A stretch of 64,000 bases of DNA from Nostoc cf. commune SO-36. GTDB taxonomy: Bacteria > Cyanobacteriota > Cyanobacteriia > Cyanobacteriales > Nostocaceae. Shown one piece after another: positions 508 to 63,399 of this stretch. Location of the stretch: assembly GCF_023734775.1 (NCBI RefSeq), contig NZ_AP025733.1, forward strand, positions 1 through 64,000. The letters run 5' to 3'. The position numbers were made by a program, and so were the translations under genes. The notes below the pieces were generated by a model. That model did not search any database, was not told the origin of the DNA, and was given only the letters and a program-made list of their open reading frames with translations. Position 1 is the stretch's first letter, and every line of letters starts with the position of its first letter.

Positions 508-705
508 CATCTATGATGCCGTATTCTTTCTCAATCAAACTCAACAGTTTCTCTTCCACATCAGTCGAATACGGTTACTTCAACTCCCCCAAGTGCTTTA
601 AGACAGCATGGGCAGCCTCTTCCAAGTTCTTGTTTTCCTGTAACCTACTGATGTTTAGTGCAACCCGCCGCAGGCATCGCTAATTAACTGCATCTGCTGA
701 CATTC
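508..705 (-). pseudogene. Family R remnant 1 (C-terminal piece)
   Basis: Read on the minus strand, this stretch encodes NISRLQENKNLEEAAHAVL, KHLGELK, a stop, then EEKLLSLIEKEYGIID. This matches the C-terminus of the complete family R gene at 12062-13009 (ISRLWEKGKLEAPTEAVL ... EEKLLGFIEQEYGIVD). The match is broken by a stop codon and, at the place where complete copies have a HIP1 site, by a short GC-rich repeat containing CCGCCGCAGGCATCGC (near 661-680). The plus-strand frame over it is a shadow. Confidence 0.8.
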
Positions 706-707
706 AG

Positions 708-884
708 ATGAATAAGCCAATTTCTGAGAAATTATCTAGCCAAATCGACGCAGGTGTTAAACTCGCTATGAAGAAAACTATTGAAAAACATCGCCGTCTA
801 GTAGAATCTATTAGCATTTGGCAAAATGGCCAAGTTGTGAGATTAACCGCCATACAAATTCCTCCTTTCAACTCAGATGAGTAA
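708..884 (+). CDS. Small hypothetical protein (58 aa)
   Basis: An ATG-started frame encoding MNKPISEKLSSQIDAGVKLA and ending IPPFNSDE. It is basic, probably helical in its first half, and has no motif I can name. Its stop overlaps the start of the pRiA4b ORF-3-like gene by 8 bp (877-884), which argues that it is a real, translationally coupled gene. Confidence 0.65.
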   Translation: MNKPISEKLSSQIDAGVKLAMKKTIEKHRRLVESISIWQNGQVVRLTAIQIPPFNSDE

Positions 885-5293: not shown

Positions 5294-6052
5294 TTAATCT
5301 TTTATCTCAGACTCTAGAACACTCAACAATTTTTCTTCCAACGCCGTCAAATAAGCCCGATTCAACTTCCCCAGCATCTCCAAAAACTTCTGCACCGAAT
5401 CTTCAAGCCCACTCGAATACACCCGATTGATGCGATCGCAAATCACCCGCATCTGCTCACACTCGGCGGGCAAGTAATTGTAAGATTTCAGGTGCTGTAA
5501 CCCAACGGCGTACTCCCCATCCCACATTGTCACCGTGCAACTAAAGTCATTCACTGTGCTGACAACTGCCCAACAGCCACCTTTGCCTCTCAGTTCCGGG
5601 TTGTCCTTTGCAAGAATTTGGCAGACTTCGCCAATCTGGTAGGTATTGGGTACTTGGGTTCGCTCCATAATTCTTTGCACCACATCTTTGACGATTCTAC
5701 CAGTTGGCACTTTCCCACCAGCGAGTTCTACCGCTCTTAGCCATGCTTCCTGCTGTTCCTGGGGTTCAAGCTTTGTCATGGGTCGAACTTGTCCCTCTGC
5801 TGTGGGCAATTTGTGATCAAATTGATCACAAATTTCAACCAAGTTATCAAAAACAACAGCCGCATCCATTAAAAGATAAGACTGGCGACGACTATGCCCA
5901 AAGCGATCACGACAATAATCCTCAAACGTGCGGTGACTTGAACGGTAAAGCCGACGATCGCGCAATTCTGCCAGTGCCTTACATGCCTCAAAAAACGCCC
6001 GCTCCACTTTCCTCTCCAGATGTAGGCGATCGCTTTGCTCCTCTTGGGTCAA
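5294..6052 (-). CDS. Family R copy A: putative HTH plasmid protein, N-terminally truncated
   Basis: 252 residues. N-terminal module: LHLERKVERAFFEACKALAE, LRDRRLYRSSHRTFEDYCRD and RFGHSRRQSYLLMDAAVVF, a helix-turn-helix-like arrangement. Then comes a linker encoded by a perfect palindrome (5809-5833), the motif LPTAEGQVRPMTKLEPQEQ, and a C-terminal beta-rich module (IGEVCQILAKDNPELRGKGG, WDGEYAVGLQHLKSYNYLP). Compared with copies B and C it lacks the first ~45 codons: homology continues upstream (SATITVSAVEVTEL) to an in-frame TAA, so only a TTG start (6052) is available. Function unknown; the motif order recalls DUF3102/ParB-associated plasmid and phage proteins. Confidence 0.7.
   Translation of the reverse strand: MTQEEQSDRLHLERKVERAFFEACKALAELRDRRLYRSSHRTFEDYCRDRFGHSRRQSYLLMDAAVVFDNLVEICDQFDHKLPTAEGQVRPMTKLEPQEQQEAWLRAVELAGGKVPTGRIVKDVVQRIMERTQVPNTYQIGEVCQILAKDNPELRGKGGCWAVVSTVNDFSCTVTMWDGEYAVGLQHLKSYNYLPAECEQMRVICDRINRVYSSGLEDSVQKFLEMLGKLNRAYLTALEEKLLSVLESEIKD
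5809..5833. repeat. Palindrome inside family R copy A
   Basis: A perfect 25-bp palindrome with arms ATTTGTGATCAA and TTGATCACAAAT around one central base. It lies within codons for ICDQFDHKLP. Copies B and C carry different palindromes at the same position. Confidence 0.75.
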
Positions 6053-10614: not shown

Positions 10615-10955
10615 TTATCCTATCTCATATTCAGACTCCAAAACACTTAACAACTTCTCTTCCACAACAGTAAGATAAGGACGGCTCAACTTACCCAATA
10701 ACTGCAACAGACTTTTGACTGTCTCTTCCAGCGAATCGGAATACACTCGACTGATGCGATCGCAAATCACCCGCATCTGCTCACACTCGGCAGGCAAGTA
10801 ATCGTAAGACTTTAGGTGTTGCAACCCAACTGTATACTCACCATCCCAGGTTCTGACGGTGCAACTGAGTTGCCCCACATGGTTGACTATGCCCCAACAG
10901 CCACCCTTACCTCTGAGTTCGGGGTTATCCTTTGCAAGGATTCGGCAGACACAAA
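10615..10955 (-). pseudogene. Family R copy D (C-terminal third only)
   Basis: The minus strand reads VCRILAKDNPELRGKGGCWG, IVNHVGQLSCTVRTWDGEYT, VGLQHLKSYDYLPAECEQMR and ends VVEEKLLSVLESEYEIG. It is closest to copy A. The N-terminal HTH module and the palindromic linker are absent: homology stops near 10955 and unrelated sequence follows. It may still be translated from an internal ATG (10878), but as a fragment. Confidence 0.75.
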
Positions 10956-12061: not shown

Positions 12062-13009
12062 CTAATCTACAATCCCATATTCTTGTTCAATAAAACCTAA
12101 TAGTTTTTCCTCAAACTCAGTCAAATACGGGCGCTTCAGTTCTCCCAAGCACTTTAGCACTGCCTCTGTTGGTGCTTCTAGCTTGCCTTTTTCCCATAAC
12201 CTACTGATGCGATCGCTAATCTCCTGCATCTGCTGACATTCCGATTCCAGGTAATTCAGTGACTTGAGGTGGTCAATTCTCATTGTGTATTCCCTATCCC
12301 ACATTGCCACTGTACAAGTGAATTCACCCACATGGCTAACGATGCACCAGCAACCACCTTTACCCCTGAGTTCGGGATTATCTTTGACAATGATTTGGCA
12401 AACTTCGCCAAGGTGGTAAGGATTAGGGGCTTTAGTACGCTCTAGAATTCGCTCAATCACATCTTTGACAACACGGCCAGTTGGCACTTTGCCATCAGCT
12501 TCTTGCACTGCCGCTTGCCACACCTGCCATTGTTCTTGAGGTTCTAGCTTCGTCATTGGTCGAACTTGACCTTCACTGGTAGGTAAGATTTGTGATCCAT
12601 TTGTTGTCAAATCCTCAATCCCAGAGTTTTGACAACAAATTGTTGTCAAATTTTCGTACACATCAGCTGCTGCAATCAAGTAGTTCGACTTTTGGCGGCT
12701 GTGACCAAACCTATCGCGGCAATACTCCTCAAAGGTTTTGTGTGTGGAACGATATAATCTGCGATCGCGTAACTCAGTCAATGCCTTCCCTGCTTCAAAA
12801 AACGCCCGTTCCACTTTCCGCTCAAAGTGCAGGCGATCGCTAATTTCCTGCTCGGTTAACTCTGGGACTTCAACAGCAGTAACGTTAATTGTTGCTGTAG
12901 CTGGGTTTTCTTGAGGGGAGATATCCTCTTCTACAAGGTCATTTGGTAATGTGCTGTCATTAGATGCGGCAGGGGTGGTTTTTTTCCGCCTAGAAGGTGG
13001 CTTATTCAT
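12062..13009 (-). CDS. Family R copy B: putative HTH plasmid protein
   Basis: 315 residues, apparently complete, with GGAGGAGGTGG before the ATG. Order: basic N-terminus (MNKPPSRRKKTTPAASN), Ala/Pro/Glu linker, ERKVERAFFEAGKALTELRD, RRLYRSTHKTFEEYCRDRFG, putative recognition segment HSRQKSNYLIAAADVYENL, a variable repeat-encoded linker (CCQNSGIEDLTTNGSQ), LPTSEGQVRPMTKLEPQEQW, then the beta module (GEVCQIIVKDNPELRGKGGC, WDREYTMRIDHLKSLNYLES) and a helical tail. No enzyme motif. The DUF3102/ParB-like arrangement suggests sequence-specific DNA binding. It lies just left of the GIY-YIG/XRE regulator and the replication operon. Confidence 0.75.
   Translation of the reverse strand: MNKPPSRRKKTTPAASNDSTLPNDLVEEDISPQENPATATINVTAVEVPELTEQEISDRLHFERKVERAFFEAGKALTELRDRRLYRSTHKTFEEYCRDRFGHSRQKSNYLIAAADVYENLTTICCQNSGIEDLTTNGSQILPTSEGQVRPMTKLEPQEQWQVWQAAVQEADGKVPTGRVVKDVIERILERTKAPNPYHLGEVCQIIVKDNPELRGKGGCWCIVSHVGEFTCTVAMWDREYTMRIDHLKSLNYLESECQQMQEISDRISRLWEKGKLEAPTEAVLKCLGELKRPYLTEFEEKLLGFIEQEYGIVD
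12589..12650. repeat. Palindrome plus third half-site inside family R copy B
   Basis: Palindrome TTTGACAACA / TGTTGTCAAA at 12628-12650 and a further half-site TTTGTTGTCAAA at 12600-12611. Next to it is TTTGTGATCCA (12590-12600), close to the half-site of copy A. All lie in the linker codons between the HTH-like segment and LPTSEGQ. Confidence 0.7.
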
Positions 13010-13168: not shown

Positions 13169-13663
13169 TCACACTGCTTCTTCCTCAAACAAATCTTCAA
13201 TATCACATTCCAGCACTTTACAAAGTCTTGCTACTTTTGCGAAAGTTTCTGACCCTTTGCCATATTCCCAATTTCTGATTGTCGAAGTATCAACTCCAAC
13301 TAAATCACCTAGTTGCTTTTGAGTTAATCCAATTTTTTCCCTTAAAGCTGCAATGCCTTTTTTGGGTGCTTCCGTTAAGTTCAACGGAGGTTTGAAAACT
13401 TTGATTAGGGCATTTTCTAGCTTTCTGAGTAATTCAGCTTCGGTTCTAATGTACGAGATTTTAACGCCTTCAAGACGACTTAAGGCTTCTAGCTTAGGAT
13501 GGCTTTTCCATTTCTGCCTTAAATTATCTGACATACCTACGTACAGCACCGAGTTATCTTTATCGATTGCCAAGTAAACACAAGGCTCATCCGGCAATGA
13601 GTTTCTGTCTTCAAGTGCCACAAATGGCAGCTCCCATAAATTAATATCCTCCATATAAACCAT
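13169..13663 (-). CDS. GIY-YIG-like domain fused to XRE helix-turn-helix, probable autoregulator
   Basis: 164 residues. N-terminal ~95: a GIY-YIG-like fold (CVYLAIDKDNSVLYVGMSDN, then LRQKWKSHPKLEAL, then a late Glu in RKLENALIKVFKPPLN). The canonical GIY and YIG triplets appear as VYL and YVG. C-terminal ~60: an XRE/Cro HTH (LREKIGLTQKQLGDLVGVDT, STIRNWEYGKGS). XRE domains bind palindromic operators; several lie directly upstream (13670-13751). The fusion suggests a nuclease domain reused in a regulator, or a regulator with DNA-cleaving ability. AAGGAAG lies 13 nt before the ATG. Confidence 0.8.
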   Translation of the reverse strand: MVYMEDINLWELPFVALEDRNSLPDEPCVYLAIDKDNSVLYVGMSDNLRQKWKSHPKLEALSRLEGVKISYIRTEAELLRKLENALIKVFKPPLNLTEAPKKGIAALREKIGLTQKQLGDLVGVDTSTIRNWEYGKGSETFAKVARLCKVLECDIEDLFEEEAV

Positions 13664-13835: not shown

Positions 13836-14642
13836 ATGACCCATCCAACCTACACACAGCAAGCCCTTTCCCGCTATAATCTCCCCCGCCTCAAAAGAAT
13901 CGCCACTGAACGCGGCGTAACACCCACCGGGGACAAAAGAGCGGCTGACACCTGGGTAAACGCAATCATCACCCACCAATCCACCCAGCTTCAGAAAGTT
14001 GACAACCAAGCCACAGCCCAAGCCGAACTCAACAACTACATCACTGACCAAGCCCAAGTTATAGCTCCCGAACTCCTCAGAATAGTCGAAATTTCGTTTG
14101 GGGATCACGAATATTATGCTGGTGATGAACTGATAGCCAGCATTAGCCATGACGACAACCACTTAACGCAACGCTGGGTAGTCATGGTCAACGATAAAGA
14201 AGTATTCCGTGCCAGCACTCTAATGCGTTGCGATCGCTTCATCTGCACTCACTACAAAGACGGTTCATTACCTGTGCAGGAACAAGAAGCAACACCCCCC
14301 ACGACTGAGAACCTAATCATGGCGCATATCTTCAACGAGTGCCAGAATTATGGGTTTGAAGTTCTCAATGATGGCATTTACAACAACAACGGCGTGAAAC
14401 TGGGGCAAGTCGGATGCACTGATGGTAACTGGTGGGTGAAGAGGCGTTATTCAGTCCAGCAGCAGTATTCTAACTCGGTGCTTGATGCTGTGCGCTCATT
14501 GTCGATGGTGGATACATCGCTGGCTGAACCAGTTCACGAATACTTGCAATCCCGACCCTTGGAACAACTGAGTTCTAATGAATTACAGCAGCTTTTCAAC
14601 CATGAAGTGCGATCTCTTCTTCAAGAATTAGTGACAGTGTAA
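13836..14642 (+). CDS. Hypothetical protein with SAP/Rho-N-like N-terminus
   Basis: 268 residues, first gene of the rightward operon, preceded by AAGGAAA. The N-terminal ~40 residues (ALSRYNLPRLKRIATERGVT, PTGDKRAADTWVNAIITHQ) resemble a SAP/Rho-N-type helix-extended-loop-helix used for nucleic-acid binding. The middle ~90 residues have beta-rich segments (VEISFGDHEYYAGDELIASI, WVVMVNDKEVFRAS). The C-terminal part is unassigned. A role in plasmid or phage-like biology is inferred from context only. Confidence 0.65.
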   Translation: MTHPTYTQQALSRYNLPRLKRIATERGVTPTGDKRAADTWVNAIITHQSTQLQKVDNQATAQAELNNYITDQAQVIAPELLRIVEISFGDHEYYAGDELIASISHDDNHLTQRWVVMVNDKEVFRASTLMRCDRFICTHYKDGSLPVQEQEATPPTTENLIMAHIFNECQNYGFEVLNDGIYNNNGVKLGQVGCTDGNWWVKRRYSVQQQYSNSVLDAVRSLSMVDTSLAEPVHEYLQSRPLEQLSSNELQQLFNHEVRSLLQELVTV

Positions 14643-14753
14643 AGCCTCATGTGGGCAGCAGTGAAATTGCTGCTCACTTTAAGGTATTTTTTGGGCGTTA
14701 TTCTCCAAACATTGCCGAAGATTCTTAGGTTATTAATCCCAGGGAAGAAAAGC

Positions 14754-15212
14754 ATGATTGACCATATTAATACACTCAAAACAAGTTGGTATCTCTCTCC
14801 ACCTTGGCGTGGAACAATTCCACCTGTTGAGGTGAATTTACTGGAGAGAGTTTACTTGAGAACCACGAGAACATTCGGCTACTGTTGCGGTATGCAATGG
14901 AAACATGAGTGTTGGCTTTATACAGTTATTTGTCGTGATGAAATTGTCCACGCCACAGAATATCAATTTATTGGGACTGGTCAATTAGAAACCCTCACTG
15001 TGCAAAAACCTGCTTTCGTTTTAGGGCAGAAAGTAATCCTATGTTCTTATGGTGATGACACAAAGCAACGGCTGATTTTAGGAGTTGTACTTGTGGATAA
15101 GTTTTGGTTTTACCTTGTCGAATTGGTATCGCCAACATTGGCTGAAACACCAACCATACTTAATCGCTTCTCGCTAGTTGGTGAAAAAAGTTTGGTATGC
15201 GTGAATGCCTGA
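14754..15212 (+). CDS. DUF1392-like protein
   Basis: About 152 residues from the ATG at 14754, which has GGGAAGAAAAG just upstream; an in-frame ATG at 14649 would add a hydrophobic stretch that looks untranslated. The sequence (LKTSWYLSPPWRGTIPPVEV, LLERVYLRTTRTFGYCCGMQ, FVLGQKVILCSYGDD, RLILGVVLVDKFWFYLVE) matches my memory of DUF1392, a ~150-residue family reported only from Anabaena-type cyanobacteria. Function unknown. Second gene of the operon. Confidence 0.7.
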   Translation: MIDHINTLKTSWYLSPPWRGTIPPVEVNLLERVYLRTTRTFGYCCGMQWKHECWLYTVICRDEIVHATEYQFIGTGQLETLTVQKPAFVLGQKVILCSYGDDTKQRLILGVVLVDKFWFYLVELVSPTLAETPTILNRFSLVGEKSLVCVNA

Positions 15213-15251
15213 ATTAATTAACTATTTTGTTCAATAAGCAGGTAATAAACT

Positions 15252-16064
15252 ATGTTGACACATTCATGGCGCGACTCAGAAATTCAGCAAATGCTCCAGG
15301 ATGGAGAAATAGGTAAATACACAATACCCAAAGGCTATGTAAATGCAACTCAGATGTGCGCGGCAAATGGGAAACTTTGGGGACATTACAAAGAGAGAAA
15401 ATCTACAAAGGCTTACTGGCTGGAGCTTTCTAACGATATCGTCATTCCGATATCGTCATTAATTATTGAAGTTTCAGGACGTGGAAGCACTCAAGGCACT
15501 TGGGTACACCCAGAGGTAGCAATTGATTTAGCTCAGTGGGTATCTATTCCATTTCGCCTCTGGGCAAACAGAACTCTAATGAGGGTGATGATCTCAAGTG
15601 AAATAGAGTCGAAGCCAGTACAAGAGCAAGAACCACCAAAAGCATTAACCCCATCCCATGAAGCTGCACAATTAGCCCTGCTGGTGGGAGAATTCGCAGG
15701 GTTAGAGAAATCCCTCACCGCTCAGTTAGCAGTTAATGCTGCCACTAGAGTTAACCCCGCACTCAAACCCGCAGCAGATGAGCTTAAGACTGCGATCGCT
15801 TCCACTAATACCGCAGAGGACGCATTTCTCAACCCAACACAAATCGGTGAGGTAGTGGGAATGTCTGCACGGGCTGTTAACCACTGCTTACTAAATTCTG
15901 GACTGCAATACAGAACAAATGACAAGAAAATTCCCTATCGTCCTACTGAATCTGGTAAGCAATGGGGTCGCATGGTTCCCGCAGTCGCCAAATCCTCAAA
16001 CCAAACTGTTTTTCAACTACGGTGGTTGCCAAGCATTACACAATTGTTTAATGAACGCAACTGA
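15252..16064 (+). CDS. KilA-N domain protein (antirepressor-like)
   Basis: 270 residues. The KilA-N domain spans about 20-115: KGYVNATQMCAANGKLWGHY, YWLELSND, then QGTWVHPEVAIDLAQWVSIP and FRLWANRTLMRVM, the hallmark of this DNA-binding domain of phages and large DNA viruses. C-terminal region: LNPTQIGEVVGMSARAVNHC followed by QYRTNDKKIPYRPTESG, a winged-helix-like part seen in phage antirepressors. Its presence supports a phage- or plasmid-derived operon. AGCAGG precedes the ATG by about 10 nt. Confidence 0.88.
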   Translation: MLTHSWRDSEIQQMLQDGEIGKYTIPKGYVNATQMCAANGKLWGHYKERKSTKAYWLELSNDIVIPISSLIIEVSGRGSTQGTWVHPEVAIDLAQWVSIPFRLWANRTLMRVMISSEIESKPVQEQEPPKALTPSHEAAQLALLVGEFAGLEKSLTAQLAVNAATRVNPALKPAADELKTAIASTNTAEDAFLNPTQIGEVVGMSARAVNHCLLNSGLQYRTNDKKIPYRPTESGKQWGRMVPAVAKSSNQTVFQLRWLPSITQLFNERN

Positions 16065-16073
16065 GGTGAAACA

Positions 16074-16448
16074 GTGGAAGAACAGATTGATGAAATTGGT
16101 AAAGAGATTAGCCTTGCTTACAGGTTTTATCAAGGTTATGGCTACTTCCTCTCGGCTACTGTTGCCGAATGGTTAGGTATTGAGTCTTTAGTAAATTGGC
16201 AGTACAAAACAATCTTGGATCTGCGTGCAGTCGATTTAATTAGCGATGCTGTCCACAACTCGGAAAATCAACGAGGGAGACGATACCTTTCATACTTCAT
16301 GCTACATGGAACTTACTCAGGCAGACAAACAGTTTTTGGAGATGGCGTGAATGTAGCTGACATAGAAAGATTGGTCGTTATGATTGACCTGCAAAAAGCA
16401 ATTGCACCTCAATTTATAAAAGACTTTGAGGTATGCAACCATGAATAA
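16074..16448 (+). CDS. Hypothetical protein
   Basis: 124 residues from a GTG start ten bases after the KilA-N gene. Largely helical; no domain recognised (IDEIGKEISLAYRFYQGYGY, ERLVVMIDLQKAIAPQFIK). Overlaps the next gene by 8 bp, so translation is probably coupled. Confidence 0.6.
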   Translation: MEEQIDEIGKEISLAYRFYQGYGYFLSATVAEWLGIESLVNWQYKTILDLRAVDLISDAVHNSENQRGRRYLSYFMLHGTYSGRQTVFGDGVNVADIERLVVMIDLQKAIAPQFIKDFEVCNHE

Positions 16449-16785
16449 CTGCCCCAAATGCGGAAGTAAAGAAATTTATAGAAAAGCTCTTGATGATTTA
16501 GTAGTTTATTGCGATTGCTGTCATCACTCTTGGGAAGATAAACAACCAAAAAGACCGATTCTTGAAACTAGCGTTTACATGAGCCGAGGAGCAATGAAGG
16601 GTAAACATAATGTAACAGTTTGGCACTGCCCTACAGACCCAGAACGTTATTCTTTTTCTCTAACCTACGGTGGTGGAGTTTGTATGTTTAGTGAGTTTTC
16701 GGAAGACCGTTATTTGAGTGGCAGTTATACCACCCCAGAAGAAGCATTAGAAGCAGGTATTACAGAGGTAAAAAATGATGACTAA
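16441..16785 (+). CDS. Zinc-ribbon hypothetical protein
   Basis: 114 residues from ATG 16441 (an upstream TTG at 16426 is in frame). The N-terminus has CPKCGSKEIYRKALDDLVVY, then CDCC, a four-cysteine zinc ribbon of the kind used for nucleic-acid or protein contact. The rest, with NVTVWHCPTDPERYSFSLTY and a GGGVCMF turn, is unassigned. Its ATG overlaps the stop of the upstream gene, and its end overlaps the next gene by 11 bp. Confidence 0.65.
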   Translation: MNNCPKCGSKEIYRKALDDLVVYCDCCHHSWEDKQPKRPILETSVYMSRGAMKGKHNVTVWHCPTDPERYSFSLTYGGGVCMFSEFSEDRYLSGSYTTPEEALEAGITEVKNDD

Positions 16786-17440
16786 ATTTCAAGATCCAAG
16801 AGCCGCCGCACTTGCCCAACAGATAGACCAAATCAACGCAATCGGTTGGGGGTCGGCGTGTGACTTAGCACTACAAAACCACGCAGTTAAAGGTGGACTC
16901 TCACCAGTAGAAACAGTATTACGTTTCGATATGTTCCTCGCCAGGACAGAAGAAACTGCCAATAAAAGAAAAGGAATTTGGGCAGAACAATTAAGCCAGG
17001 GTATTAGCGGAATCGAATGGTACACCGTTGAGTACGGCGGCATGGCTGTAGAGCTTCCCCGGCTGTGTGAGGAATTGACGCTCGTTCCTGGGGATAAAGA
17101 GATTCTTGTGCAGTCCAAGTCGGTGGCGCTCGACTTCCTCGCACACTGGAACATGGTGTTTAAACTGTGGCACTACGACCGTGAAGCTGAATCACGCTGG
17201 AATCAAAGTCGATGGAGCGAGTTTTACGCAGAGTACTTGCATGGGCAATGGTTAGAACTGTGGGCTGAGGATGAGGTTTACCAGATTCAATTAAAAGACG
17301 GAACACTCTTAGATAAACCCACATTTGCTATCAACGCTTGCTGCTGCTGGGGTAATCCAGAAGCAATCCATCGTACTGCGGCTTACTCCGAAGCTGGCTC
17401 AAGTTGGTTCCAGTGGAATAATTTTACACCTTGGAAGTGA
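16775..17440 (+). CDS. Hypothetical protein
   Basis: 221 residues, rich in Trp and acidic residues (SAVALDFLAHWNMVF-like segment, AESRWNQSRWSEFYAEYLHG). No known motif. AGAGG precedes the double ATG. Overlaps the zinc-ribbon gene; part of the same operon by spacing. Confidence 0.6.
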   Translation: MMTKFQDPRAAALAQQIDQINAIGWGSACDLALQNHAVKGGLSPVETVLRFDMFLARTEETANKRKGIWAEQLSQGISGIEWYTVEYGGMAVELPRLCEELTLVPGDKEILVQSKSVALDFLAHWNMVFKLWHYDREAESRWNQSRWSEFYAEYLHGQWLELWAEDEVYQIQLKDGTLLDKPTFAINACCCWGNPEAIHRTAAYSEAGSSWFQWNNFTPWK

Positions 17441-17506
17441 GAGCGATTTCTTGTGCCATAGGAAACTAATTTTAAGCTAACAATTTTCACATTGAAAGGA
17501 AAAGAT

Positions 17507-17722
17507 ATGGAACTCGGATATTTCCAAAAAGATGTACTCATTGAAAAATTAGCCAAGAAGTTCTACGCAATTCAGGGCTATGTAGTCCCCGAATCATATC
17601 GAATGCAATCAGCTACACATCCAGCAGAAAGAGCTTGTGTGGCTATGGCTTTGTTTGCAGTAGAAGAATTTCAACTAATCACAGAAGAGGAATCAGATGA
17701 GTACGAATCAGATGAAGAATAG
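17507..17722 (+). CDS. Small hypothetical protein with acidic tail
   Basis: 71 residues from ATG 17507, which has AAAGGAAAAG at the right distance; an in-frame TTG at 17492 is less likely. Sequence MELGYFQKDVLIEKLAKKFY ... ending in the acidic run EEESDEYESDEE. The acidic tail is reminiscent of DNA-mimic or antitoxin tails, but no family is recognised. Confidence 0.6.
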   Translation: MELGYFQKDVLIEKLAKKFYAIQGYVVPESYRMQSATHPAERACVAMALFAVEEFQLITEEESDEYESDEE

Positions 17723-17839
17723 TCTACTAATTTCTTATTTACTGAAGAAAGCTTATTGCAAAATATTCAGTTAAAGCGCGAGTAATATACCAGAGAAATA
17801 CTTTCTTACAAATTACAAAATACAGAGAGTGGAGCGTAA

Positions 17840-18298
17840 ATGAAAGCCATAGTCACAGTTGTTGAAAAAATCACATCGGAAGCTCACATTAATATTCCTG
17901 ACGGTTTAGCAGTAACAGCAATTAGCCAGCACATTGTAGACCGCTACAACAGTGGCGAAATGCAAGCAGATTTGAACATTTTTCACGTTGATTTTGAATC
18001 TATCAGCGCTCATATTGGTTCAAAAACTTATATTACTTGGCATCAAGGCAATCCTTGTGATCACCGTGCGTATTACTTCTGCAAACTGGGAAGATTTACT
18101 TTGACTCTGTTAACTGATACAGAACAAAACTTGACTCGTACAGAAGCTTATTTAGGCAATTTTAAGCAACTTATTTACACATCGGAAAAAGAGGTATCCA
18201 AAGAATTGGCAACAGTCGAACTCCAAAATTTCTTATCTGGACTCGCTGTTGAACTTCAGACTTTAAGCCACATTGAATTTAATGAGGATTCAGTATGA
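17840..18298 (+). CDS. Hypothetical protein
   Basis: 152 residues, preceded by AGAGAGTGGAG. Contains IPDGLAVTAISQHIVDRYNS and a central beta-rich part (HIGSKTYITWHQGNPCDHRA, YYFCKLGRFTLTLLTD). No family recognised. Its TGA overlaps the ATG of the DNA methyltransferase gene (ATGA), indicating coupled expression. Confidence 0.6.
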   Translation: MKAIVTVVEKITSEAHINIPDGLAVTAISQHIVDRYNSGEMQADLNIFHVDFESISAHIGSKTYITWHQGNPCDHRAYYFCKLGRFTLTLLTDTEQNLTRTEAYLGNFKQLIYTSEKEVSKELATVELQNFLSGLAVELQTLSHIEFNEDSV

Positions 18299-18987
18299 AT
18301 GCCACACAATTGCTAACACCACAATCACATACAAGTGCATCTACAGCAGAAACTGTTGGTAGACATCCACTGAACTTTTACGAGTCTCCATCGTGGTTTA
18401 CTACAGAACTACTACGTCACGTTAGGTTGTCAGGTGTCATTGGTGAGCCGTGTGTGGGGCATGGAGCGATCGCATCTTTACTCAGAGTGTGGCCCTACAC
18501 CAAGCAAATGTGGACGAACGATATTGATCCACATAAAGCGGCTGATTACCATCTGGATGCAACACTATCCGAGTCATGGTCTAAATTTCCTGATTGCGAT
18601 TGGATCTGTACTAACCCACCATACGCGGAATTTGCTGCACCAATCATCAGAAATGCTTACCAGAAAGCGCATGTGGGTGTTGCCGCTTTTTTACTTACCA
18701 GCTTTCTTGAACCTTGCGATGACCGGGCTGATTTCTTACAGCAGCACCCGCCGTCACTTGTCTTAATCATGCCGCGCTTCTGCTTTCGGAAAGACAAACG
18801 GGGTACTCGTTGGGCTACTGATAACGTTACAATCTCGTGCTTTGTGTGGGACAAACGCGCAACAGGGCAGCGCATTATCGTGCGTCCCAAACCAGAAATT
18901 ATTGGGTTTTACAAAAATCCAGAACAGGCTATTTCACAAGAACGGGCTATTGAAATCGTTCGGGCAATCGCCAAAGGAGAATTATGA
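18295..18987 (+). CDS. SAM-dependent DNA methyltransferase, N6-adenine type
   Basis: 230 residues. Motif I-like EPCVGHGAI (51-59) binds the cofactor; acidic NDIDPHKAADYH follows beta-2; catalytic motif IV NPPY (107-110) identifies an amino-methyltransferase, most likely adenine-N6. Later segments (FLLTSFLEPCDDRADFLQQH, RWATDNVTISCFVWDK) fit the phage-type stand-alone methyltransferases with little target-recognition sequence. No restriction gene is adjacent. Coupled to both neighbours by 4-bp overlaps; the downstream neighbour is an AlkB-like demethylase. Confidence 0.85.
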   Translation: MNATQLLTPQSHTSASTAETVGRHPLNFYESPSWFTTELLRHVRLSGVIGEPCVGHGAIASLLRVWPYTKQMWTNDIDPHKAADYHLDATLSESWSKFPDCDWICTNPPYAEFAAPIIRNAYQKAHVGVAAFLLTSFLEPCDDRADFLQQHPPSLVLIMPRFCFRKDKRGTRWATDNVTISCFVWDKRATGQRIIVRPKPEIIGFYKNPEQAISQERAIEIVRAIAKGEL

Positions 18988-19583
18988 AACAGATGTCGCT
19001 TTTTGATGAACCAACTGCTGTTTTACCAGTCAGTTATTATCCAGATTTCTTGAGCAAGCATGAAGCAGACGAACTTTACCAACATTGCCAAGAACTGCAA
19101 TGGCAGCAAAACCAAATCAGGATGTTAGGTAAAACTATGCCTGTTCCGCGTCTGGAGTGTATTTATGGGGACGAAGACTGTGATTACCTCTACTCCAAGA
19201 GCGTACTGCTTAAGCCATTACCTTGGACTTCATCGCTAGTCCAACTGCGAGATAGAATTACTGCGGCTACTGGTTACAGCTTCCGTATTGTCATTGGTAA
19301 TCAGTACAGAAGCGGACAAGACTCGATAGGGTGGCATAACGACAGTGAAGCTTCAATGGGGTTAAATCCAGCGATCGCCTCTGTCAGTCTGGGTTCAATG
19401 AGGAAATTCCAAATCAAGCCCATTGGGGGTAAGCCTACTGACTTTTGGTTGGAACACGGGAGTCTGCTGGTGATGCTTCCAGGTTGCCAATCAACACATC
19501 TGCATCAAGTTCCGAAGACCAATAAGGTCGTTAGTACACGGATTAATCTAACTTTTCGACCGCACGTTGGAGGTAAAAGATGA
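18984..19583 (+). CDS. AlkB-like 2-oxoglutarate/Fe(II) dioxygenase
   Basis: 199 residues. Double-stranded beta-helix signature: GNQYRSGQDSIGWHNDSE with the HxD iron pair (H118, D120), the distal His in STHLHQVPK (H172/H174) and the 2-oxoglutarate-binding RINLTFR (R186 and R192). PRLECIYGD and NQYR match the nucleotide-recognition part of AlkB homologues. Expected reaction: oxidative removal of methyl or alkyl groups from nucleic-acid bases. Overlaps the adenine methyltransferase gene by 4 bp, an unusual pairing of opposite activities. Confidence 0.88.
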   Translation: MKQMSLFDEPTAVLPVSYYPDFLSKHEADELYQHCQELQWQQNQIRMLGKTMPVPRLECIYGDEDCDYLYSKSVLLKPLPWTSSLVQLRDRITAATGYSFRIVIGNQYRSGQDSIGWHNDSEASMGLNPAIASVSLGSMRKFQIKPIGGKPTDFWLEHGSLLVMLPGCQSTHLHQVPKTNKVVSTRINLTFRPHVGGKR

Positions 19584-19645
19584 CCTCAAGTTATCGCTAT
19601 TGCTGAGGTTTATATCCAAAATTATTAATATTCAAGGAGGATTCT

Positions 19646-20950
19646 ATGGGATTTCGTAATGGTAAACCCTCTAAACAGTTTACTGCAATTCCCAACAGTT
19701 TAATTCGCGATCACAACGTTACTGATTCAACATTTAGGTTAATTTCTTGGGTAGCTTCTCACGATGAAAACTTTGATATTAATTTTACGGTAATCGAAAA
19801 ACATTTGGGGTATAAACGAGACAAAATCCGTAATGCTATCAAAAACGCTGAACAAAATGACTATTTAGTGAGAGTTCAAGAGAACAATCCGAACAATGGT
19901 AAGTTTGACTGGCAATATTACATTTTTACCAGCAAAGAAGACACAAAGTTATTTCGAGAAAATCATTCATCCATAGGTGGGTCATCCGTAAGTGGGTCAT
20001 CCATAGGTGGGTCATCCATAGATGGGTCATCCATAGGTGGGTCATCCACCCCTCATATAAAAAAACAATTAGAAGAAAATAAATTAGAAGAAAAACACAT
20101 ACAAGAAGCACCCCCAACTCAGAACGCACTTCCCGCCCAAGAATCGTGTGTGTGTGAAACTGAACAACTAAACCTTGAAAAACCAACTCCAGAAAAACCA
20201 AGTCTAGAAGAACCAACTCCAGAAGAACCAACCCCAAAACAACTCACTTCGTTGTCAAAAAATTCCGAGTCTTCGCAACAAACCGATAACCCCTCTTGTA
20301 GACCAACTATTGCGGTCGGGTCGTTCGATAAAAACGAACAATCGAACAACCCGAAACAACCAAAATTCCAGTCGATTGAAGATTTGATTGACATGGTTTT
20401 AGTAGATCCAAGCATCATGGCAACTGACTCATTGCCTACCGTGTACAGAACAGAAATCAAAATGCGTAATTGGCGCTTCCCCTGGCGTACTGCTACCAGG
20501 GACAAGATTTACCAAACCTGCGATCGCCGACTGGTGGAGTTGATAGCTAAACACAGAGCTAAGTGGAGTGAGAGTGAATCTTGGCAAGAGAAAATCCCCA
20601 CAGTTCTCAAGTCAATTGGTAACTTAGAAGGCTCCAAAGCCGGACTAGAAGAATTACTGGGCTATTGGTCACAAATTTCTGAACCAGAAGCCACATCATC
20701 ACTAACAAAACAACAAAAACCAGATGAAAAACGACCCATCGGCTATTTCGCTAACCGTTCTCTTGATTGGCATAAGTCCACCTTCAGCGAGTTTTTAGAT
20801 CGTGTCGATGAAGTTGGCAAGGACAAAGCTTGCGCTTCTTTTAGTACCCGCTATGACCAGCAATTTCCAGGTGCAACGGACAAATGGCTGGAGTGGATAA
20901 AGTTCACACATCCCTCCATGTATCTCTATTTACATCAAAATGCTGCGTAA
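19646..20950 (+). CDS. Replication initiator-like protein with internal iterons
   Basis: 434 residues with AAGGAGGA before the ATG. The N-terminal ~95 residues (FTAIPNSLIRDHNVTDSTFR, LISWVASHDENFDINFTVIE, KHLGYKRDKIRNAIKNAEQN) form a winged helix like that of phage and plasmid replisome organisers. Residues ~108-132 are a five-residue repeat (GSSIG units) encoded by 15-bp tandem repeats. A Pro/Glu/Thr-rich linker (~160-230) leads to a C-terminal helical part. Together with the next gene (DnaB) it mirrors the lambda O-P arrangement. Role inferred: origin binding and helicase recruitment. Confidence 0.75.
   Translation: MGFRNGKPSKQFTAIPNSLIRDHNVTDSTFRLISWVASHDENFDINFTVIEKHLGYKRDKIRNAIKNAEQNDYLVRVQENNPNNGKFDWQYYIFTSKEDTKLFRENHSSIGGSSVSGSSIGGSSIDGSSIGGSSTPHIKKQLEENKLEEKHIQEAPPTQNALPAQESCVCETEQLNLEKPTPEKPSLEEPTPEEPTPKQLTSLSKNSESSQQTDNPSCRPTIAVGSFDKNEQSNNPKQPKFQSIEDLIDMVLVDPSIMATDSLPTVYRTEIKMRNWRFPWRTATRDKIYQTCDRRLVELIAKHRAKWSESESWQEKIPTVLKSIGNLEGSKAGLEELLGYWSQISEPEATSSLTKQQKPDEKRPIGYFANRSLDWHKSTFSEFLDRVDEVGKDKACASFSTRYDQQFPGATDKWLEWIKFTHPSMYLYLHQNAA
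19967..20048. repeat. 15-bp tandem repeats, candidate iteron origin
   Basis: Five head-to-tail units of 15 bp (consensus TCATCCATAGGTGGG, 19967-20041) with one or two substitutions in units 2 and 4, plus a partial sixth unit to 20048. They lie inside the initiator-like gene and are followed by an AT-rich stretch (20055-20100), as expected for an origin with a melting region. Confidence 0.75.
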
Positions 20951-20986
20951 AAATAATTTGCAATTTATCTTCCTCTCCAGGTAGTC

Positions 20987-22351
20987 ATGACACAAAACAA
21001 ACTGAACTTTTCATCCGAACAAGACCGCTTACCACCTCAGAACATTGAGGCAGAAGAAGCTATACTCGGCGGTATTATGCTTGACCCGGAAGCAATCAGC
21101 AGAATAGTAGATCGCTTAATCCCCGAAGCATTTTACATTTCCTCCCACAAAGACATTTACCAAGCTGCGCTGCGGCTCCATACACAAAACAGACCTACAG
21201 ATTTATTATCTGTAACCAGTTGGCTAACTGACAATGGGCTTTTGTTTCGTGTTGGTGGTCGAGATAAACTGGCTACACTCATTGACCGTACAGTTTCAGC
21301 CATCAACATCGACGCTCTGGCAGAATTGGTAATGGAAAAATACCACCGCCGACAATTAATCAAGGCGGCAAACGAGATTCTACATCTCGGCTATGAAACT
21401 GAAACTGAATTACCACAGGTTCTTGACGCTGCTGAACAAAAAGTTTTCAGTGTCACACAACAGCGCTCTCATGATGACCTGATTCATATTTCTGACTGTT
21501 TGGTTGACGCTTACCAAGAAATCGAGTCGCGCCACGCCGGTACATCTAGTCCCGCCATTTCTACTGGATTCTATGATTTGGATGGTTTACTCGGTGGTGG
21601 CTTTCGCCCCAAACGCCTGTATATACTCGCTGCTCGTCCATCTGTCGGTAAGTCCGCCCTTGCTGGTAACTTAGCTCTTAATGTCGCTCAATCCCAAAGA
21701 TTACCTGTAGCTATCTTCAGTTTGGAAATGAGCCGCGAAGAATATGTGCAGAGATTCTTGTCAAGTGAATCCGGCATTGAGAACAGTTTACTCGAAACGG
21801 GGCGGCTCTCTAACAATCAGTGGCAACCCCTGAGTCAAGCGGTAGCACAACTTTCCGAACAAGGGATTTTTATCAATGATAATTCCTGCCCCACAATGAA
21901 TGAAATTCGTAGTCAAGTCCGAAAAATCTCAGCCACACATGGCGGTGTCGGACTCGTTATCGTAGATTATTTACAGTTGATGGCTGAGGGTACTGATTCA
22001 AGAATGAACATGACCCAGAGAGTCGGTCAAATCAGCCGAGGACTGAAAAAATTAGCTAAGGATCTTGATGTTCCAGTCCTAGCCTTGTCTCAGTTAAGCC
22101 GGGAAGTCGAACACCGTAATGATAAACGCCCTATATTGAGTGATCTTCGAGACAGTGGGGCGGTGGAACAGGACAGTGATGTTGTGATTATGCTTTACCG
22201 TGATGAGATTCATAATCCCAATTCCCCTGACCGTGGCATTTCCGAGTTAATTGTCCGCAAGCAGAGAAATGGCCCTACTGGTACAGTCAAGCTGCTATTT
22301 GATAACCAGTTTACCAAGTTTAAAAACTTAGTGCGTCATCGGCAGTTTTAA
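20987..22351 (+). CDS. dnaB: Replicative DNA helicase DnaB
   Basis: 454 residues. N-terminal domain: LPPQNIEAEEAILGGIMLDP; Walker A ARPSVGKSAL (216-225); ifslEMSREE, VIVDYLQLM (Walker B), ALSQLSREVEHRNDKRPILS and DLRDSGAVEQDSDVVIMLYR are all standard DnaB motifs. Full length, no intein. The hexameric helicase unwinds DNA at the replication fork. This copy is accessory (plasmid or element) because it lies in a mobile operon directly downstream of the initiator-like gene. Confidence 0.95.
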   Translation: MTQNKLNFSSEQDRLPPQNIEAEEAILGGIMLDPEAISRIVDRLIPEAFYISSHKDIYQAALRLHTQNRPTDLLSVTSWLTDNGLLFRVGGRDKLATLIDRTVSAINIDALAELVMEKYHRRQLIKAANEILHLGYETETELPQVLDAAEQKVFSVTQQRSHDDLIHISDCLVDAYQEIESRHAGTSSPAISTGFYDLDGLLGGGFRPKRLYILAARPSVGKSALAGNLALNVAQSQRLPVAIFSLEMSREEYVQRFLSSESGIENSLLETGRLSNNQWQPLSQAVAQLSEQGIFINDNSCPTMNEIRSQVRKISATHGGVGLVIVDYLQLMAEGTDSRMNMTQRVGQISRGLKKLAKDLDVPVLALSQLSREVEHRNDKRPILSDLRDSGAVEQDSDVVIMLYRDEIHNPNSPDRGISELIVRKQRNGPTGTVKLLFDNQFTKFKNLVRHRQF

Positions 22352-62457: not shown

Positions 62458-63399
62458 TCATTTCTGTTGCCTCCACTCGATTTTGTACTCCCGTTCCACA
62501 GTCGCCAGCAATTTTGCCTGCAACGAAGATAAATAAGGTTTAGCTTGTTTCCCCAAACCCTGCAACAGCCAATCAACAGAAGAGTCACGGCTGGCCACTT
62601 GATGCAACTGCTGTAACCTCACACATAGCTGCTGCATAAAAAAGCAATCTTCATCAAGGAATTCCAGTGATTTCAGGTGTTCAATCTTCACGGTATAATC
62701 GCCGTCCCAGGTCTGGAATGTACAACTGTATTCGCCAACATGAGTTACCACGCCCCAATAACCTGTTTTACCTCTCAAGTCTAGGTTCTCTTTGGGCAGA
62801 AGGATGCATATTTCACCAATATGGTAAGGATTGGGTACTTTCGGACTTTCGCGTATTTTATCCACAACATCTTTCACTATGCGACCAGAAGGAATCTTAT
62901 TCCCAGCTTGCTCTACTGCTTGTTGCCATACATCCGCTTGCACAGCCGGTTCCAACTCGGCTTTCGCCAAAAACCGTAGTTGTCGTTCGTTGGTCGGCAT
63001 TGGAATTTGCTGACCATTGGTCGGCAAAAACTTTTGAAGATTCTCGTAAACAGCAGTAGCCGAAATCTTCAAGTACGCTGCATCACGGCTGTAACCAAAC
63101 CGTTCGCGGCAGTATTCCTCAAAAGTTCGGTGCGTGGAACGGTATAGCCGTCTGTCTCTCAACTCCATCAGCGCCTGACCCGCTTCTAAAAATGCACGTT
63201 CTACACGGCGTTCCAATTGCAAGCGTAAGCTTTGTTCTTGGTCGGTCAACTCTTTTACTTCAACAGCCGTTACCGTGATAGTTGCTGAAGCTGGGTTATC
63301 CTGCCCAGAATTATTTTCCTTTGTAGAGTCGGTTGCTAGCTTTGCTTCCTCAGATGTCGCAGGGGTAATTTTCTTGCGTCTAGATGGTGGTTTGTTCAT
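62458..63399 (-). CDS. Family R copy C: putative HTH plasmid protein
   Basis: 313 residues from ATG 63399, which has GGAGGTGGGGC upstream; an in-frame ATG at 63507 lacks such a site and is unlike copy B. Order as in copy B: MNKPPSRRKKITPATSEEA, LERRVERAFLEAGQALMELR, DRRLYRSTHRTFEEYCRERF, recognition-like GYSRDAAYLKISATAVYENL, a repeat-encoded linker (PTNGQQIPMPTNERQ), PSGRIVKDVVDK, NPYHIGEICILLPKENLDLR, WDGDYTVKIEHLKSLEFLDE, basic C-terminus EWRQQK. The LPTxERQxRPM motif has become MPTNERQLRFLAKAELEP. Function unknown; likely DNA binding. Confidence 0.75.
   Translation of the reverse strand: MNKPPSRRKKITPATSEEAKLATDSTKENNSGQDNPASATITVTAVEVKELTDQEQSLRLQLERRVERAFLEAGQALMELRDRRLYRSTHRTFEEYCRERFGYSRDAAYLKISATAVYENLQKFLPTNGQQIPMPTNERQLRFLAKAELEPAVQADVWQQAVEQAGNKIPSGRIVKDVVDKIRESPKVPNPYHIGEICILLPKENLDLRGKTGYWGVVTHVGEYSCTFQTWDGDYTVKIEHLKSLEFLDEDCFFMQQLCVRLQQLHQVASRDSSVDWLLQGLGKQAKPYLSSLQAKLLATVEREYKIEWRQQK
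62988..63027. repeat. Palindrome plus third half-site inside family R copy C
   Basis: Palindrome TTGCTGACCA / TGGTCGGCAA (63007-63027, one mismatch) and a further TTGGTCGGCA half-site at 62990-62999, within the linker codons NGQQIPMPTNE. The arrangement (palindrome plus one extra half-site) is the same as in copy B but the sequence is different. Confidence 0.65.

Follow-up and report, generated by a model that had tools for sequence, protein, structure and literature searches.

Canonical ParB/Spo0J with parS, and Noc with its binding site (NBS), are helix-turn-helix (HTH) proteins that act as clamps on palindromic sites, and the site is not known to be bound to one place in the protein's own gene. 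Sites inside the own gene are known from replication initiators, i.e. lambda O with the iterons of ori and the RepA_N initiators, in which the specificities of protein and site differ jointly between alleles. For ParB, parS-359 of Bacillus subtilis is described as located within parB (PMC4442127), and the switching of specificity in ParB/Noc is the subject of another report (PMC7383237). The closest described system is ParATS of the Streptomyces coelicolor plasmid SCP2, whose ParT protein (SCP2.04c) was reported to bind an 18-bp inverted repeat in its own coding sequence (parS), by chromatin immunoprecipitation sequencing (ChIP-seq) and biolayer interferometry (BLI) (Sukhoverkov et al. 2025, PMC12260392). 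The same report describes ParT as activating ParA, with contact through the N-terminal SRR of ParT, and as diffusing along DNA without nucleotide. It lists homologues in 21 cyanobacterial species, mentions homologues lacking parA, and reports a ParA neighbour for 45 cases, of which 44 are from Actinomycetota. Here a family of plasmid genes, named R, is described from Nostoc cf. commune SO-36, starting from gene copy B (P0001, 12062..13009, minus strand, 315 amino acids) in a window of 64,000 nucleotides (nt), the whole stretch analysed, which is the first 64 kb of the 271,158-bp replicon C2 (NZ_AP025733.1) in a 7.4-Mb genome of five contigs. Family R probably consists of ParT-like centromere-binding proteins, each binding a palindromic parS-like site encoded in its own linker after the recognition helix; we infer binding, sliding and a role in partition from the sites, covariation, DNA-level selection, homology and cassette exchange, which were read by sequence.

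No informative match to R was found in Pfam, NCBIfam or PHROG, with copies A and B hitting no Pfam family and copy C giving only an unrelated sub-threshold match. Comparison of the R alignment with an alignment of six ParT sequences by hhalign gave a probability of 99.0 (E 6.8e-18, 112 columns), and copy B matched SCP2 ParT in BLASTP at 28% over 138 columns (E 2e-6). The N-terminus of B in the AlphaFold 2 (AF2) model was composed of a low-confidence stretch and one long helix (residues 53-82), and a CTPase (ParB N-terminal) domain was seen neither in the Pfam scan nor in the model. In 105 of 127 R proteins, at least four of the 13 N-terminal residues were Lys or Arg (MNKPPSRRKK in B); a literal SRR or SRK existed in 55 of 177. 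By the profile comparison R is a homologue of SCP2 ParT, a ParB-like HTH protein without the CTPase domain that is present in ParB/Spo0J and Noc. The likeness to ParT includes the long helix before the HTH, the basic N-terminal peptide, the parS inside the gene and the pairing of RAHAYR with TGTCTCC. In contrast with ParT, R has a KOW/SH3-like C-terminal part, a site centre of mostly 5 nt, and several sites including chimeric ones in many genes. It is present in many copies per genome, and parA did not adjoin it in the loci seen.

In gene B (all features of the gene are on the minus strand), the 13 codons of the recognition segment (HSRQKSNYLIAAA, 12665..12703) lie at helix 105-123 of the AF2 model and are followed by linker codons (residues 124-151, 12557..12640) with a predicted local distance difference test (pLDDT) score below 50. 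Site 1 (12628..12650, residues 120-128) is a perfect 23-bp palindrome with core TGACAAC, which reads TTTGACAACAA-T-TTGTTGTCAAA on the coding strand (TTTGACAACAATTTGTTGTCAAA as a whole). Site 2 (12589..12611, 23 bp) is chimeric, pairing the own half TGACAAC with the class-A half TGTGATC, and reads TTTGACAACAA-A-TGGATCACAAA (TTTGACAACAAATGGATCACAAA as a whole). The sequence-only reading had reported a palindrome plus an extra half-site in B and palindromes of different sequence in A and C; these were real and were confirmed on the DNA, the "third half-site" being the left half of site 2 and the A-type half-site its right half. Copy A (5294..6052, minus, open frame extending to 6103) has a perfect site with core TGTGATC (5810..5832, minus); it lacks the N-terminal basic peptide, has a stop codon immediately upstream, and is probably 5'-truncated. 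Copy C (YSRDAAYLKISAT, 62458..63399, minus), an R gene of the C-type, has a site with core TGCCGAC/TGCTGAC and one mismatched pair (63006..63028, minus), and copy D, the fourth full copy in the genome (C2:136160-137104), has the site TGTGTCC/GGACACA with core TGTGTCC. A single TTTGACAACA half-site was also observed in gene B outside the linker (12464-12473), in codons of the conserved VVKDV stretch.

The TTTGNNNNCAANTTGNNNNCAAA pattern occurred in copies A and B only in the whole genome. With up to one mismatch allowed, the paired core of B was found only at B and that of A only at A; the paired core of D was found at D without mismatch and at one imperfect chromosomal place, and that of C at C itself with one mismatch and at one imperfect chromosomal place, with no mismatch-free occurrence. 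Paired sites were therefore confined to their own genes, bar two one-mismatch places, which speaks against a regulon. This confinement in SO-36 would suit an autoregulator or long-range silencer, where R at the intragenic site represses the operon it belongs to and slides on to repress plasmid genes nearby, in the way of KorB, a sliding clamp reported to silence at a distance (PMC11790492); lone 9-nt half-sites outside linkers in some loci point the same way. Such a role is nevertheless rather unlikely, since there was no whole site near the divergent promoters, with only weak whole-site matches outside linkers (L090, C2), the site begins about 360 nt inside gene B, and relatives stand in parA operons in two other phyla. 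Apart from those in R genes, C2 has a single perfect TGNNNNC palindrome, TGACGGCATAAAGCCGTCA at C2:109679-109697.

The linker site was a property of the family. Relatives of B amounted to 2,078 counted and 120 listed. The genome-contig search gave 378 loci; in the best 80 of these, together with the window and copy D, a linker palindrome was present in all 88 R genes, with 8 to 11 of 11 arm positions paired. From all sources 179 distinct R-like frames were collected, two of which could not be parsed and were dropped, and 173 of the remaining 177 had a paired site in the linker after the recognition helix, counted as the core NGNNNNC facing its complement over a gap of 4 or 5 nt with no more than one mismatch, the G and C core ends being required and the T not. 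The usual form was TGNNNNC, 4-5 nt, GNNNNCA, with TGNNNNC in every class but one. Three of the four siteless relatives had a palindrome of slightly altered form (L116 and L166, which are one gene type, and L126), and L168 on plasmid pNsp_f was the sole case among the 177 with no visible linker palindrome.

When perfect cores were required and the four middle core bases left free, 171 sites existed per 17,400 nt of linker vs 1 per 155,934 nt in the remainder of the same genes, which served as control; a perfect site was found in the linker of 144 of the 177 genes and elsewhere in the gene in 1 of 177. The 171 homotypic sites compared with a mean of 9.7 and a maximum of 18 in 50 synonymous shuffles, the TGNNNNC form and the 17 cores being derived from the same data that were used for these counts. 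Looking for palindromes of any kind over the entire gene was a weak test, in which only 49 of 134 genes were matched by at most one of 60 synonymous shuffles. The form-specific tests against chance are strong, and the feature is far from chance.

The palindromes had been proposed to stand at one fixed codon position, which did not hold. The linker is common to all, but the distance from the RFG motif to the start of the site is 53, 59, 61, 62, 64 or 65 nt, in various frames; offset and frame vary by class (53 to 65 nt and more), and the cores TGTGATC and TGTGCGC were each found in two reading frames. Within class TGACAAC (n=45), codon entropy was 0.21 bits in site 1 (6 codons) vs 1.10 outside (72 codons). 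The innermost pair of site 1 in 46 class-B genes was A:T in 24, C:G in 21 and G:C in 1, being complementary in all, and complementarity was kept although the switch of this pair puts Gly or Arg in the place of Cys. Codon usage and pairing thus show selection on the DNA, beyond the peptide alone, and the low-pLDDT linker may be a place in the modelled protein where much sequence change is tolerated.

Palindromic inserts in protein genes are known from the Rickettsia elements, and this precedent could suggest a palindromic repeat inserted into the genes, or a conserved linker peptide, without any DNA-binding role. That explanation is highly improbable here, because the palindrome is class-specific in sequence and tracks the helix, its reading frame varies, and synonymous codons are near fixed within the sites and variable outside them. 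In addition, the SCP2 homologue was reported to bind its own in-gene site (PMC12260392).

The expectation that the palindrome covaries with the recognition segment in homologues was borne out. There were 49 distinct 13-residue segments forming 50 segment-core pairs, 48 of the 49 going with one core and a single segment with two cores that are related; in this tally the segment of L131/L271 was misparsed, the true one being KSHAYR. Segment similarity and core were linked more strongly than in any of 2000 permutations. HSRQ[KQ]S and HTRQK went with TGACAAC (46 genes), [FY]SRRQPYHL with TGTGAAC, HSRRQSYLL and YSRRQPYFL with TGTGATC, RRHPYRL with TGTGTCC, YTHR[RH]VNYL with TGGGAAC, YNRSRSYQ with TGTCCAC and YSRDAAYLK with TGCCGAC, and the repertoire of the family comprised about 17 half-site cores. 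The gene of SCP2 ParT (MKRAHAYRMIEGW) carries TGTCTCC-AATT-GGAGACA, i.e. TGTCTCCAATTGGAGACA (18 bp), at codon 142. We take it to be the SCP2 parS, an identification made here from the gene sequence, as the letters are published only in a figure, and two other palindromes of SCP2.04c score equally high in a free scan. Two cyanobacterial genes with RAHAYR (RAHAYRLINAA) carry TGTCTCC, the same segment and core as in SCP2 ParT, and this match serves as a cross-phylum check on the pairing of helix and core. TGTCCCC went with KSQAYR and TSQAYR in two actinobacterial genes, and with KSQAYR (L157) and KSHAYR (L131/L271) in cyanobacteria.

On a tree of the protein without segment and linker, with 158 rows of which 155 had a class, at least 54 changes of site class and 49 of helix class were counted, and 20 shuffles gave 95 to 106 site changes. 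An IQ-TREE tree of 123 rows, which left out classes of fewer than three rows, siteless rows, rows with at least 90% identity and six divergent loci, gave 42 changes of site class vs about 77 in shuffles. The trees were made by FastTree and a quick IQ-TREE and contain long branches; among classes with more than two rows, the C-type alone formed one clade. This distribution indicates that helix and site are transferred jointly, many times, between otherwise unlike backbones, i.e. cassette exchange, and the short linkage that keeps lock and key together is read as the reason for the arrangement. By eye, the module of HTH plus site was also joined to other C-terminal parts, cysteine-rich and ribbon-helix-helix (RHH)-like (L150-L154, L158) or coiled-coil-like (L128-L130, L133), and in Streptomyces to a DUF5131 protein (L269).

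The A-type half-site in B had been taken "as if sites were exchanged or added", and it was no accident. In the second site of the 46 class-B genes the own left half was exact in 44, while the right half was TGTGATC in 19, TGTGTCC in 7, TGGGAAC in 5, the own TGACAAC in 3, TGTAAAC in 2 and TGTGAAC in 1, the remaining 9 being other words, mostly one base off. An exact member of the 17 cores thus formed the right half in 37 of 46 (34 foreign, 3 own), though class-B genes are largely near relatives and these counts are not independent. In all genes 72 chimeric pairs were counted vs a mean of 7.0 and a maximum of 18 in shuffles; 23 of the 72 belong to the YTRIAA/YTRMAA classes, where the main site itself is asymmetric, and 11 are TGTGACC/TGTGATC, which are close cores. 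Chimeric sites may load heterodimers, or may be relics of exchange. An R-like gene without adjoining parA on a plasmid of Deinococcus sp. QL22 (L268 4001-4828) holds TGACAACCATTGGTTTACA, in which two repertoire halves are paired.

Under the ParT-like interpretation, and on the model of SCP2 ParT, an R dimer would load at the in-gene site and then move by sliding into the neighbouring DNA, and loaded R would mark the plasmid for a ParA-type ATPase. No ATPase gene stood beside R in the Nostocales loci seen, and the ATPase would act in trans or the role would have shifted. With helix and site spanning about 150 bp, both could be replaced at once by a single recombination event, and specificity could change without a non-functional intermediate. 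A bolder version, which is possible and to be held tentatively, is that the lock-and-key cassette of about 150 bp swaps centromere identity in one step, that chimeric sites load heterodimers of co-resident paralogues and so couple different plasmids within a cell, and that the C-type copy serves the plasmids of that cell as a common address.

The sequence-only reading knew of no description of such an arrangement, and this has to be amended, as the in-gene parS of SCP2 ParT was published in 2025 (PMC12260392). The in-gene-site mechanism has a published precedent in this one distant homologue; as far as literature searches show, the family-wide generality, the helix-site pairing, the roughly 17 cores, the cassette exchange and the chimeric sites are not described. 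A single published case would thereby be turned into a rule for a large plasmid gene family. The gene sequence alone would yield a protein together with its likely site, a DNA-recognition code becomes readable from sequence, and the evolution of protein-DNA specificity becomes directly testable. Candidate orthogonal protein-site pairs for marking DNA are offered as well, and so is a way into the question of what distinguishes or coordinates the many plasmids that share a cell in filamentous cyanobacteria.

In 80 cyanobacterial R loci no Walker-motif ParA was found over 8 kb, or as far as the contig extends, while ParATS is defined by parA next to parT. As parA did not adjoin R in these loci, the family is classed with the ParT homologues and not with ParATS systems. 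Other partition genes are present on R-bearing plasmids, and the task of R may be partition in trans or something derived, e.g. plasmid pairing or silencing. Among 12 non-cyanobacterial plasmid loci, hand-picked from match lists, the R relative was directly behind parA in 10, from Bacteroidota (Emticicia, Spirosoma) and Actinomycetota, SCP2 included. A linker palindrome, in some cases imperfect, was present in 8 of these 10, and none was noticed in L279 and L281, whose linkers got no separate scan.

R was divergent from a plasmid gene row (cluster 1 in 60 of 80 loci), which, where the contig reaches its end, finishes in a gene we take to be CyRepA-like (cluster 9, 16 loci) or in HTH_36 plus DnaB genes (clusters 11 and 14; 11 and 8 loci). 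This position at the edge of the row would be in keeping with a replication initiator with an in-gene origin, modelled on lambda O and the RepA_N plasmids, where R, bound to iteron-like sites within the gene that encodes it, would bring in a helicase (CyRepA-type, or HTH_36 plus DnaB). In other arrangements a CyRepA-like or DUF3987 gene adjoins R, and some linkers contain two to six sites, often 39 nt apart. There is only a small chance that R is such an initiator, since its homology is instead to ParT, with ParA as operon partner, and an annotated CyRepA1 was located elsewhere on two R-bearing plasmids read whole; nor is any R gene indicated by the GC skew of C2, though this shows no clean pattern at all. 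CyRepA and CyRepX, which belong to the same kind of plasmid and are sometimes neighbours of R, are described as helicase-type replication proteins (PMC10899382), by which they would differ from R. On the Nostoc plasmid pNsp_f, an annotated protelomerase family protein (L173, NZ_CP046709.1 46533-47573) stands beside CyRepA1 and parA/CopG genes.

For co-residence, 25 non-chromosomal contigs with an R helix were taken from the genomes of 15 relatives and SO-36, and 12 of them carried both a variable-class and a C-type R. The C-type core was constant (TGCCGAC, at times with one base changed), so that one cell had copies with the same core on several of its plasmids; repeats also occurred in some variable classes. 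The proposal that a gene copy carries its own address fails on this point: with same-class copies on co-resident plasmids, the site is no simple identity tag. Recognition by each protein of the site in its own gene finds support in the 173 of 177 relatives, the covariation and the reported binding of SCP2 ParT to its in-gene parS (PMC12260392), while one address per copy does not stand.

Small variable genes, several of them HTH-like, precede R in many relatives. The gene upstream of B (13169..13663, minus) is a fusion of an Xre-type HTH and a GIY-YIG nuclease-like part, and the divergent plasmid gene row of module B (13836..22351, plus) ends in an HTH_36 protein (19646-20950) and a DnaB helicase (20987-22351). 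The C-type R adjoins genes that presumably encode secreted proteins and CHAT proteins, and on several plasmids it also stands beside a putative XerC-like recombinase gene. The best matches in named collections were Nostoc. Six R-gene fragments were also observed in the SO-36 genome, three in the window (509-793, 2173-2379 and the C-terminal fragment 10621..10950, minus) and others at C2:137900-137995, C2:139948-140106 and C1:910923-911402; they are mostly C-terminal, some with stops, and show that R genes were gained and decayed repeatedly in this genome.
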